The notes under the pieces are model-generated. The model ran no database searches. It was not told where the DNA came from and worked only from the letters and a program-made list of their open reading frames with translations. A stretch of DNA of 64,000 nucleotides from Muricea muricata (Eukaryota; Cnidaria; Anthozoa; Malacalcyonacea; Plexauridae): contig OY979718.1 in assembly GCA_963855995.1 (NCBI GenBank), forward strand, positions 36,161,059 through 36,225,058, in the 5' to 3' direction. Positions 17,501-29,500 of the stretch are shown piece after piece. The position numbers were made by a program, and so were the translations under genes. Numbering within the stretch: the stretch's first letter is position 1; each line of letters opens with the position of its first letter.

Positions 17501-20500
17501 GGTTAAAATCAAATCAATAATTATAACTAATAGTTAATAACGTGTATAAAGTTAGGCCGTCTAAAACAATAAAAGACAAACATATATTTTCTTAAACATT
17601 TTAAAGTAGTTAAAGTAGTCATCTATTTTCGTTGTAAAATTTGAATGATTTTCGCGGACTACAGTCTTTACTTAGGTATTTTCCGAAGTAAACTGTATTC
17701 ATAAAAGAAATGCATTTTATACATGTTTTACTAAAGAAATTATACTAAAACAATCACTTAAATGCCTCGGGCTCAGTGATTATGGTGAATATTCACCGAC
17801 ACGAAGTCGACGTAATAATCACTTCGCCTTCAGCGAATAATTGTTAAATATGAAGTGAAAACATACCGGACTTCAATAGCATTTTTCGTAACAACAGATT
17901 GCTTCTGATCTCTCTGAACGTTGTCCAATTCCTTGAGAAATATAATTAGAAAAAATGACTTGATAAAAACAAGACAAGTAGTATATTTGATCACTTATAG
18001 TGCGGGTGCGGCTGTACAGGATCTGCCTCCCAGAACCTTATCCATATGCATACTGTATCTCTGGTCAGGAGAGCATGCTTTCGAGCAGTCCCATCGCAAT
18101 TAAGGTGGCTCCCTACAGTTGTCAAACATTTTTGCTATTTTAGTTAACTTTCATTTTCAATCACATTTATGCTTAATACACATATGCCAAGGAAATATGA
18201 TCATCTTCAGCAAAGATATGAGGTTTCGTGGTATTCATATTTGAACAAATTAGAACAGTGTTGGTGTTGCCATAGCAACTATGTCGATTTATCTTGAGCA
18301 CTATTATTGCCTGATTTCAGAATTAATTGATAATAACTTTTTGTTCCTTCGGTGAATTTTTCTGAATTTTTCTTTAATGATTTATGGTTGAAAGAGGAGT
18401 AATATATTAAATTTTGAGACGGGGTTATCAAGGCAGGTCCTGGGGTACACGCGAATAACTATAACGGAAATACCCTCCTATAGAATTTCTTGAAATTTTG
18501 ATATGTTTTATTGCTTATCATATGGAGCAAGTGTGCAAAGTTTCAAAAAAATTCACCGAAGGAAACGCGAGAAAAACACTCTTAAAAGCGAGTTGATGTT
18601 GCTGTCGTGACAAAATATCGATTCGACATGATCGGTATCTGCGCATGCGTTTGAATTATAATGCGTGAAAAACGCGTGTTTTTTAGTTGGCTTTTTTGGT
18701 AATTTCATTGTGAGTTGTTTGGCATGTATGTTATGAAACACTGTATGAAACGGATATTTTTTATTATTTGAGACAAACATACAAGATAAATCTTCAGAAA
18801 ACAAAACACGAAAACAATATACTAATTGAATTGATGCATAGTTCATCAAATTCGTTTTTGTTGATAAATCCGTGTCAAAACGTTTCAAAACATTCAACTG
18901 CAAGTTAAAAAATTGGTCTAAAACAAGTATTAGCAACTCCTATTATTTGTAACTGTCTGCAGTGTACTTTTATATTAAATTCAGCAGATAAAATACTACA
19001 TCTGAATGGAGTTGAATGACAGGACTTACATAAGTTTTGTCCACAATTGGAGAATCCTTTTGAAGACAGTTCAAGATAGCATTTTGATCCGCGATTATTT
19101 TTTAGCATCGTTAAAGACATTGCTTGAACATAAATGCGAAAGAACACGTTAAAATGTATCTTAAAAACTGGTTAAAACATACGTACTCTTTAACTTTTAA
19201 AAAATACGAGAAAAAGCGAAGAATTGCCATGTTTTGGTGCAAAAAAAAAACTCAAAAACAACTTTCCGCGGCTTGTTTCATATTGTTTGCCGAACCACGA
19301 AAATTCCACGCGAAAGTCGTGAGGATGACGTCTGATGTCACCATGATGTCACTGATCCATATAAATAATTTATAAACTGAACCAAACTGTAGGGAGCCAC
19401 CTTAACGTATTTTAGTTTTGGAGAGATTTCGACAACATAAATAAATTATTGCAATTCTATTTTTAAGTTACCTCCAACAGAATACCACCATAATGACAGT
19501 GACAATGTAAACTAATCACGTCAGTTAAGAGAATACAATCGATTCCCACAAAAACATATGTAAAGCAATAAGTAAACCAATTGATGCGAAAAATATGTTA
19601 ACCGAGAACGATACCTTTCGCAAAGACACAAGTTGAGCTTCGAGTCCTTCGCATTTCTGTTTGGCGTCTTCATAAAGCTTCTTATATTTATCACTTTGTG
19701 TCTTAATAAAAGCAGTAGCAAAGGTTACGTTATGAAATATACATGCACACAAATTTTTTGCACATGTGCAAAGTGAAGGCCACCTGGGAGATTGAAATGA
19801 CTGATGCTTTAGGAAGCTACTGATGTATGTCAGTTTGTTCATTATCTTCGCACAATAATGAGATCGCGCACACACGCGCTACAGATGTTCCATCGTACTG
19901 TCTGCTGGTGTCAACGACTGCTTTTTCAACGCGTCACTTTCAATTCCGCGTGTGTTTTAACGGCTACACACCAAACGCAATTAGGCAATGCGAGGTTATT
20001 TTTCAGTTTCAGAAAGAAACAATTATATCATTGCTCCTGATGTAAGATTTCTTTATCAAATTTTATTGCACTAGGACATCTTACTCATCAGGTTCGCATC
20101 TTTCATGGACATTTTATGTACTTCTGGTGTTTATACATCGCCTTGAAATTTCGCGCGCTAAACTTGTAGTGGTGGTGACATTTCGGAAACAGTTCTGATC
20201 TTTTACTCAAAGCCAGTTAGGCCGTAATCCCTGGCAGGAAAAGTCGCTTAGAAAACGAGTTTCGTTGCCCGCCTCAGCGCACTACTTTAAAATACGTTTA
20301 AAAAATAGGAAAAAATATATGAAATACAAATCCGCTTGTTTACACCTTCACAAACCTGCAGTTTTTTAGCATTTCTTCATCGAAAATTCAATAAATCAAA
20401 ACATTTCGCAATCAATCGCCGCCATTTTTGTTTTGGATACTTGGTGTAATATACGACATACGGTTTAAACATGGCGTCTTCCGACTCATGTTTAATTCAT

Positions 20501-26500: not shown

Positions 26501-29500
26501 CAAATGTGAATGAATGTAGATATGAACTTTTTAAATCGGGGAAATGTTCAGACGATGCGTTGCCTCCAACTTGCGATAGCCTTGCCCAACATATCAACAG
26601 AGCAAACTTTCAAGCAGCATCATGGTGTGAATGTTTGAGTGCAGAAGTTAATCTTCCATCACCAGTTGGTAATGGCTGGACGCTTAAAAACGATGACGAG
26701 CTGGAGATTACCTGTATGACACGACCGCCTGCTCCACAATCATTGATCGAGTGTGTTGAGTGCAAGTGCAAAACTGGATGTTTGACCATGCGTTGTACAT
26801 GTAGAAAAGCTGAATTGAAGTGCACCGACTTGTGTTCGTGTTGTGATTGTCAGAATGGAGGATCTGGGGATGGAGATGAAGATGACGATGAGAACATTTA
26901 CTATGGCGTTGCCCTGCCGGATGACGAAGAACTTGGAGAGTCAGATTTGGATTTCGAGGACGGTGATGATGATTTGTGACACTGGTTGGCAGTCAGGCTA
27001 GCTTGAGAGCGCGTAGTTAAGTTCAATTTTTTCAGTTCTAAGTTCATATTCTATTTCTCACAGACTCCAAAAGCGTTTAAGGGCATGTATATAAGTATAA
27101 CTTAAAGCCCGTTTTCCACTAGACAAATTTGTTCGCCACCAACAAGTAGGAACCGTTCCAACTTTTTTTTTCTGTTCAGTGTTCACGCAAACAAATTCGC
27201 CTAGTTGAAAACAGGCTTAAACAGTCATTACACCCGATCCAAACGTAATCCAATAAGATTATTGTATCCAATAAGATTATTGGGATTGTTATGGTTAGGG
27301 TTGTGGTTTGGGTCAGGGTCATTTTGTTTGCATGAAATTACGATTCCAATAAGTATTGGAATTGTTAATTAACGTTTTAACTTGTCATTAACCCCGTTCG
27401 GAAACGCTGGATCTTTTATTGTATTTTCAGTAGATTGATATTTGGTTGATATTGATATTTAAGAGTAGCGCATCCGGCTATTTGAAAATAGCATGCAGTG
27501 GTGTAGGGGGTAGCAAAACAGTCAGGGTGGAGCCTCCCTCTTGTAGGGTGTGAGGTAAATGTAGAGTAGTATTAGTATATAAAGGTCATAATGTTGTACA
27601 GTATATAATAACTCGTATTTAATGAAGTAGGGTAGAAAGTAAGACGATAAAACGAAGTTAGCTTTTCTTCCTACCGATTGAAATTTGGTTTGCTTCTAGG
27701 TTATTTTACTTTTTAGGTTGGTGCAAGAACAGTCCACTAGATGAACAAAAAGCAAGAGAAGTGCCGGCTTTTAATCTCCTAAAAGCGTTGCTGTGCATGG
27801 TATGGGAGAACACGTTCCAGATTTTCCCACTGGGTTTTTTTCTGGTTTTCGTGTCCGGCGCAGCAACATGGCATTATCGCATCTGAATTGTGCTGATAGT
27901 TGGTATGTGAACGTACAGCACGCCAGCCACTCTACTTGGAGTGAACTATACCACTAAGATACATATCTGATTGTTTTTTAGTGTATGGAACATAAGGAAT
28001 AGCGCTGATCATGCGCTGATCTGACCTGGTAGATGAAGAACGAGGAGCCAAATACTGCAGTGGCGTTGTAAATAGTCTTTAAGTGGATAATGCGTGCTGT
28101 GTAAATTAACTAATGTTTAAAAAAGAGGGCTATAATTGGATAACATAACACACGGTTTTGGTATTTTGTAAATATTCTTGTTTTTTTGTGAATTCCAAGT
28201 CTAATATAGTATATATTAAAATATATACACAGATTAAAAAACAATCTTGAAAATTTGGCTTATAACCTCTCCGTCTTTAGCCCTTTTGAGCGATTTGAGC
28301 CTTGTCTGAACTGGATTAAACAGCGGAATTGTGAGAAACTTCATGTAACTATTGATGTAAAAGTGCTGAATATGCACTGTATGTCGTATATTACACCAAG
28401 TATCCGCAACAAAAATGGCGGCGATTGATTGCGAAATGTTTTGATTTATTGAATTTTCGATGAAGAAATGCTGAAAAACTGCAGGTTTGTGAAGGTGTAA
28501 ACAAGCGGATTTGTATTTCACTTATTTTTTCCTATTTTTTAAACGTATTTCAAGCTAGTGCGGTGACGCGGGCAACGAAACTGAACGATATCGAGCGAGG
28601 GATTACGGCCTAAGTTGCTCCCTATTTGTTTATGAGAAAAAAAATAGACATGAGATAAATGGAACGCATTATAAAACTTGCGAAGGAAAACTGGTGTTTG
28701 AAGGAAAAATTGCTCGCCTGTATAGGGTTCTATAATGCACTTAAAACAAAAAATAAACAACAATAAAATACGTACTTGCAAACTTTGATTTGTTTTTTGT
28801 ATTCTTTGTAGCTCATCTTTGAGCTCTCTGGTCTTTTCTTCACTGACGGCAATTTTTTCATCCTAAATTTTTTTAACAAAGGTCGAATTATATTCAGTAC
28901 AAAAGGTCACCGAGTTTATTTTAAGAAATCGTTAAACAAAAAGAAAAAGAAAAACCAATTAACAGAAGAAGAAAGAAAGGAAGAAAAAAGAGAGACAAGA
29001 AGAACAACAAAAGCAAAAAGACGAAAAAAAAGAGCAAAAAAAGAAGAACAAAAAATAAGAACAAAAAGAAATACCAAAAGAAGTACAAAAAGAACAAAAA
29101 AAAAAAGGAGAACAAGAAAAAAGGAGAACAAGAAAAACGGAGAACAAAAAAGCAGAACACAGAGAAAAAAAAGTGACAATGACGGACGAAAATAGGAAGA
29201 ACCAGTTAATAAGAAAGATAAAAAAGAACAACAAAAACCACAAAAAAACCCCGTTTTGCAGCTGGTTTTAAAGTTTTGAATTTGAAAGAACAAACTGAAC
29301 TGAGTAATAGCCGTACAGTGAAAACAGACATACCTTAGATATAGATTCCGCTGAAATTCTATCTAGTTCTTCTTGCATTACTCTAATCTTCGCTTTTAAA
29401 AATCGAGTAACTGTCTCTAAATAACAAAAATAGTTTCATGTTTTTCTTATTTCAAAAAACCTCCACAAGGGGGCCAAGTTTGCAATTCATTTAATTTTTC

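Follow-up and report, generated by a model that had tools for sequence, protein, structure and literature searches.

A 64,000-nucleotide window of the Muricea muricata genome (C3:36161059-36225058; the genome searched comprises 453 Mb in 74 contigs) holds, at window positions 20218-28612, a DNA transposon with terminal inverted repeats (TIRs), flanked by AGT on both sides and carrying one spliced gene. The predicted protein appears to combine a transposase core with a D-D-H-E pattern and a region resembling the XPG/EXO1 nucleases, and the element is very probably a DDE transposon with an accessory XPG-type nuclease. A sequence-only reading of this stretch had already described a TIR element with a possible AGT duplication and a FEN1/XPG-like gene product, both of which our analysis supports; it had taken the nuclease to stand in place of a DDE transposase, and here we come to a different conclusion.

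The element and its copies in the genome

The left TIR (20218..20464, + strand) starts with TAGGCCGTAATCC and is matched by the right TIR at 28376..28612 (- strand). The termini of the element read TAGGCCGT...ACGGCCTA, and the two AGT copies of the target-site duplication occupy 20215..20217 and 28613..28615. Two inverted pairs make up these ends, inner arms at 20258-20464 and 28376-28582 (207 nt, 95% complementary) and an outer pair at 20211-20235 and 28595-28619 (25 nt, 88% complementary). The left 245 bp of the element matched at least 40 places in the genome at 88-100% identity, from both ends of elements, which shows that the inverted ends are not a chance pairing; 40 of 186 left-end candidates were scored, so that match counts are lower bounds. 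Twenty loci with such ends were fetched and examined together with the window copy. The lengths of these 21 elements range from 2,577 to 8,884 bp, and an exact 3-bp duplication was found in all 20 that have two readable ends (L019 included), one end being absent in L028.

For 19 elements, the two flanks were joined around a single copy of the duplication to give an empty-site query, and eight of these queries were searched in the genome. For four (L012, L013, L014 and L015) the whole joined site was found elsewhere in the genome at 100% identity, and these empty sites are paralogous, uninterrupted and precise. For the window's own site, L009, L010 and L011 there was no empty site among the matches listed (40 of 2,769 candidates scored), which is not evidence of absence. 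The earlier proposal of a mobile family is thus borne out by further copies with the same ends and by the empty sites.

Short copies of ~2.6-4.8 kb have the same ends as the full element. Nine of them (L013, L014, L015, L017, L018, L020, L021, L023 and L025) share one internal deletion pattern as well as these ends, suggesting that they form a non-autonomous subfamily mobilised in trans. The short copy L014 (C1:68346396-68349330) is inserted in a tandem-repeat region with many repeats spaced by 346 bp; the array adjoining it (C1:68.29-68.45 Mb) contains other units that give exact empty sites.

Gene structure and state of the window copy

Reading frames, together with GT-AG splice sites at all seven introns, place eight exons on the + strand, one more than previously counted. 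The exons sum to 4,973 nt and encode one spliced protein of ~1,650 residues. Exon 1 (20471..20968), read from the first ATG and placed by its translation and GT donor, ends with the CxxC that opens a putative zinc finger, the remainder of which is encoded in exon 2 (21111..22862) along with most of the proposed transposase core. The core continues through exon 3 (23320..23657), exons 4 (23714..23773) and 5 (23913..24080), both placed by translation and splice sites, and exon 6 (24414..24654). Exon 7 (24801..26057) encodes a linker and most of the XPG/EXO1-like nuclease, and exon 8 (26321..26979) its GCD helix-two-turn-helix segment, followed by the C-terminal part and the stop. The four protein motifs quoted in the sequence-only reading are all present in this translation, the last being split by the last intron.

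The element in the window is a damaged autonomous copy and is not autonomous now. Against L009 and L010, to which it is 96.7-98.2% identical over the aligned pieces, its reading frame is broken once in exon 3 and once in the linker of exon 7, and it therefore cannot encode the complete protein. All eight exons are open in L009, and L010 has a stop in exon 2 and an interruption within exon 7.

A candidate transposase core in exons 2-6

Conservation was assessed in an alignment (A1) of 84 proteins chosen from the 120 listed matches of a long relative; residues are numbered after its first row, P0010. A second conserved domain, encoded in exons 2-6, shows a D-D-H-E pattern whose columns are 97-100% conserved. 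The first aspartate of the proposed core lies in the motif DNID (22209..22220, + strand); of the 76 rows not gapped there, 74 keep D70 and all 76 keep D73. The second, in VFDEAVY (22716..22718, + strand), is D237, conserved in 84 of 84 rows. Between it and the glutamate is a GxFH motif (22794..22805, + strand) with G263 and H266 each found in 84/84. Two glutamates are candidates for the third catalytic acid: E290 (82/84) in the ESG of exon 3 (23332-23334) and E483 (83/84) in the IEQTxN of exon 6 (24500-24502), the latter being preferred.

We infer from these columns that exons 2-6 encode a transposase core with an RNase H fold. Transposases of hAT, MuDR, P, Kolobok and Dada have the order D, D, C/DxxH, E, as given in passages of PMC10045372 and PMC9587614. 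The layout of the element's core (strand-D, strand-D, strand-GxFH, a long stretch, then E-Q-T-x-N) resembles this order, a likeness of arrangement and not a test of homology. Of the Pfam models, DUF6589 (PF20231) is the one that matches the core repeatedly: 17 of the 32 relatives scanned match it weakly, at E<=1 (best 4.3e-7). The Pfam entry states no function for it. The Pfam scan gave no DUF6589 match to the window's own exon 2; in a scan of six relatives, DUF6589 fell below the Pfam cut-off in three (17-25 bits) and did not match the other three. Matches to DUF6589 are abundant in the genome as a whole, with at least 112 found and scores of up to 118 bits, and may represent further transposase lineages.

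An XPG/EXO1-like nuclease in exons 7 and 8

The C-terminal region is supported as an XPG/EXO1-type nuclease by sequence comparison: its profile-profile score against EXO1 exceeds the controls, catalytic aspartates align and the acidic residues are conserved. All of its motifs lie on the + strand. The aspartate of VIDAMAV (25367..25369; D723, D in 83/84) is aligned to EXO1 in the HHalign comparison. A second aspartate (25496..25498; D770, 84/84) precedes a conserved lysine and arginine (K778, 83/84; R785, 84/84) and is aligned to EXO1 in the PDB search described below. They are followed by EEAD (25811..25822; E873 in 84/84, D875 in 83/84), by DTD (25889..25897; D898 and D900 each in 83 of 83 rows with letters) and by the aspartate of GCDTTS (26326..26328; D956, 84/84), also aligned to EXO1. 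The EXO1 positions matched are, we assume, D30 for VIDAMAV, D78, E150/D152 for EEAD, D171/D173 for DTD and D225 for GCDTTS.

The likeness to EXO1, FEN1 and XPG thus consists of seven acidic positions in the same order, an EEAD that resembles the E-A-D of EXO1, a Lys/Arg helix after the second aspartate and the GCD helix-two-turn-helix segment. The order of the acidic residues and most of their spacings are as in EXO1 and FEN1, assuming the numbering of those two enzymes to be as we have it. P0010 has 103 residues from the second aspartate to EEAD, longer than the equivalent stretch in FEN1, which we take to be ~72 residues. The element's nuclease differs from EXO1, FEN1 and XPG in that its similarity to them is seen only between remote profiles and in that it is fused to a transposase core.

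For the profile-profile comparison, A1 at P0010 residues 660-1060 was set against 26 EXO1-family proteins, namely those of 120 listed in which a script located a start motif and a correctly spaced GCDY. HHalign gave a probability of 92.4, an E-value of 5.2e-7 and a score of 57.96 over 278 columns, compared to 24.39 for the best of 100 column permutations, 19.76 for reversed columns and 17.30 for the transposase half. Against a first set of 13 EXO1-like loci of the same genome the score was 42.48 (probability 70.7), with a maximum of 24.45 in 60 permutations. In a search of the PDB, two colinear pieces placed D770 and D956 on the EXO1 aspartates of 'LVFDG' and 'GCDY' at an E-value of only 0.09. 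Together with the conservation, these comparisons uphold the FEN1/XPG assignment made earlier from what were then counted as exons 6-7.

Cysteine cluster, relatives and sequence constraint

Downstream of the nuclease motifs is a cysteine cluster similar to CXC (Tesmin/TSO1) domains (26752..26856, + strand), which is weak in the window copy (E 0.039) and matches PF03638 in 20 of 32 relatives at E<=1 (best 6.4e-7); against the PDB the cluster found LIN54 (E 9.7e-5). At the other end of the protein, the putative zinc finger may bind the ends of the element.

At least 129 matches to the nuclease exon, at 33-100% identity, and at least 85 to exon 2 were found in the genome. One relative lies ~2-9 kb past the right end of the window on the other strand (C3:36226852-36233893; L035, L043), with 76-77% protein identity. 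Some relatives consist of a single exon. One of these, L049 (647-5143, - strand), encodes 1,499 residues, and reading by eye shows the motifs of zinc finger, core, nuclease and cysteine cluster in it, indicating that introns have been lost or gained within the family. Protein matches outside the genome numbered 165 with a long relative as query and 588 with the nuclease exon, 120 of each being listed. Organisms among the matches listed include corals and other cnidarians, echinoderms, hemichordates, a tunicate, hagfish, fishes and a sponge, and those named among the best 120 of the 588 nuclease-exon matches are all octocorals. A recurrent name among the matches listed is 'Tesmin/TSO1-like CXC domain-' protein, suggesting that animal proteins under this name or listed as 'uncharacterized' include transposon proteins with a hidden nuclease.

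Letters at all eleven tested columns are present in 75 of the 84 A1 rows. With D or E allowed at the fourth nuclease place, the D-D-H-E set is intact in 73 of these complete rows, the seven acidic positions of the nuclease in 74 and both in 72. Three comparisons of L009 with relatives 76-78% identical to it gave a ratio of non-synonymous to synonymous substitution rates (dN/dS) of 0.12-0.16 in the nuclease exon, and two gave 0.16-0.17 in exon 2; in comparisons with the deeper L038, L046 and L047 synonymous sites were saturated.

Other XPG-encoding repeats

The genome also contains at least 24 further XPG_I exons at E <1e-8. Host repair genes will account for some of these, and others lie in repeats, namely the near-identical pairs L056/L058 (97.7% over 2.66 kb), L062/L063 (99.9% over 2.57 kb) and L057/L065 (91% over 1.9 kb). 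At these six loci, on C1 and C2, the shared sequence starts with CAGGCGGTGTGCG or, in one of them, with CAGGCGGTTTGCG, and the boundary lies near position 475-560 of L056, L058, L062 and L057. These CAGGCGG repeats are a different multicopy family that encodes a plain EXO1-like XPG nuclease. They are ruled out as part of the element family by their shared sequence, which starts at a terminus of its own, and the sole significant piece of the element family's transposase in these loci, in L058, lies outside the stretch shared with L056. A HIRAN-like match follows the nuclease in L056, below the Pfam cut-off. At a glance, no close pair of XPG_I and DUF6589 matches was seen in the genome, the comparison being unsystematic and both lists incomplete.

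Classification and rival explanations

AcademX, a lineage of the Academ superfamily (Kapitonov and Jurka 2010 and Kojima 2020, as cited in PMC10045372), encodes a nuclease and makes 3 or 4 bp duplications according to the passage on it in PMC10045372. The element resembles this description in its TIRs, its combination of transposase and nuclease and its duplication length, and differs in that its nuclease is too divergent for the Pfam XPG models. On architecture and duplication length, compared by description, the element family probably belongs to AcademX, the nuclease of which we presume to be of the XPG type. AcademH is ruled out, as it needs a helicase and a 9-10 bp duplication, compared to no helicase match in the 32 relatives and 3 bp here. 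Kolobok elements, whose target duplication is TTAA, are ruled out by the 3-bp duplication and the domains. Kolobok lineages likewise add a nuclease to the transposase, with folds that differ from that of the element and a role in transposition that is not established: DEDDh in KolobokD, lambda-exonuclease-like in KolobokE and His-Me finger in KolobokP, as reported in part of PMC9587614.

Taken together, the evidence makes it likely that the element is a cut-and-paste transposon of the AcademX lineage of Academ, with a D-D-H-E core and an accessory XPG/EXO1-type nuclease in one protein. Several results weigh against this. No Pfam DDE-transposase model matches any of the 32 relatives scanned, nor does any Pfam XPG model at E<=1, and Pfam and NCBIfam scans of single exons and relatives likewise gave neither an XPG nor a DDE model. 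The A1 profile finds EXO1 in the PDB at E 0.09 only (four distinct sequences of one enzyme), and the profile of another alignment, A2, finds no EXO1 there, only LIN54. The near-identical pair L009/L031 has a dN/dS of 0.46 in the nuclease exon. Lastly, Pfam readily finds XPG in the CAGGCGG repeats, and it might be these that represent the usual AcademX.

This last point leads to an explanation that we consider unlikely, in which the CAGGCGG repeats are AcademX proper and the element family stands apart from published Academ as a superfamily or deep lineage of its own, in which a DUF6589-like transposase joined an XPG nuclease independently. Such a separation would fit DUF6589 being the only recurring Pfam match over the core (17 of 32 relatives, E<=1), a nuclease invisible to Pfam as against the plain XPG_I region of the CAGGCGG repeats, and our finding no open-licence paper that names both DUF6589 and a transposon. 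It is opposed by the duplication length and the nuclease, which match AcademX as far as the available description goes, by the start of both the element and the CAGGCGG repeats with a pyrimidine and then AGGC, and by the occurrence of such proteins in many animal groups, from which Repbase very likely has members. A more specific version is less probable still: a deep DDE lineage ranging from sponges to fishes, apart from Academ, in which a DUF6589-type transposase and a Pfam-invisible EXO1-like nuclease share one chain and the nuclease resects the donor break for copy-back from the sister chromatid. It seems very unlikely that the element captured its nuclease as a mere passenger without a role in transposition, since 74 of 75 complete relatives retain the catalytic residues of the nuclease and its dN/dS is about as low as that of exon 2; varied accessory genes do occur in other transposons (PMC9587614). 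The idea that the flap-type nuclease itself mobilises the element, with no DDE transposase present, could draw on the lack of any match to a recognised DDE model. It is scarcely credible given a second domain in the same protein with invariant D and G..H and near-invariant D and E columns, and given fixed 3-bp duplications and precise, intact empty sites, because of which a DDE strand transferase is expected. To our knowledge, FEN and EXO1 enzymes hydrolyse DNA and do not join ends.

Proposed mechanism

The AcademX assignment is consistent with the following scheme, in which both the cut-and-join chemistry of the core and the processing step of the nuclease are inferred. The D-D-H-E core would cut at the TAGGCC ends and join them to target strands staggered by 3 bp, and the zinc finger and cysteine cluster would bind DNA. 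The nuclease would be an accessory acting on 5' strands: it may trim 5' flaps left at element or target ends, or it may resect the donor break, upon which repair would copy the element back from the sister chromatid.

The potentially undescribed transposition chemistry suggested by the sequence-only reading is unlikely, as a nuclease and duplications of 3 or 4 bp are already described in print for AcademX (PMC10045372, as far as its passage on AcademX goes). The element is most likely a good example of this existing kind and not new chemistry. In the passages available from the open-licence literature (PMC10045372, PMC9587614, PMC10294476, PMC10799480, PMC12730594, PMC3627910 and PMC4455052), no transposon with an XPG/FEN nuclease was found besides AcademX, where the enzyme is given as 'nuclease'; this argues only weakly for novelty. 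Repair-type enzymes accompany the transposase in several transposon lineages, with roles that the literature, in the parts available, only suggests. With its many copies, precise empty sites, trans-mobilised short copies and two separately mutable active sites, the family is a handy test case for them.

Other contents of the window

Retrotransposon sequences lie on both sides of the element. A 1,876-residue open frame at 11504-17131 (- strand) has BEL/Pao features, namely Peptidase_A17, reverse transcriptase, integrase and DUF5641. At 47954-55013 (+ strand), retrotransposon pieces in several frames include a weak gag match, reverse transcriptase, RNase H and integrase, with a further reverse transcriptase piece at 54504-55013.

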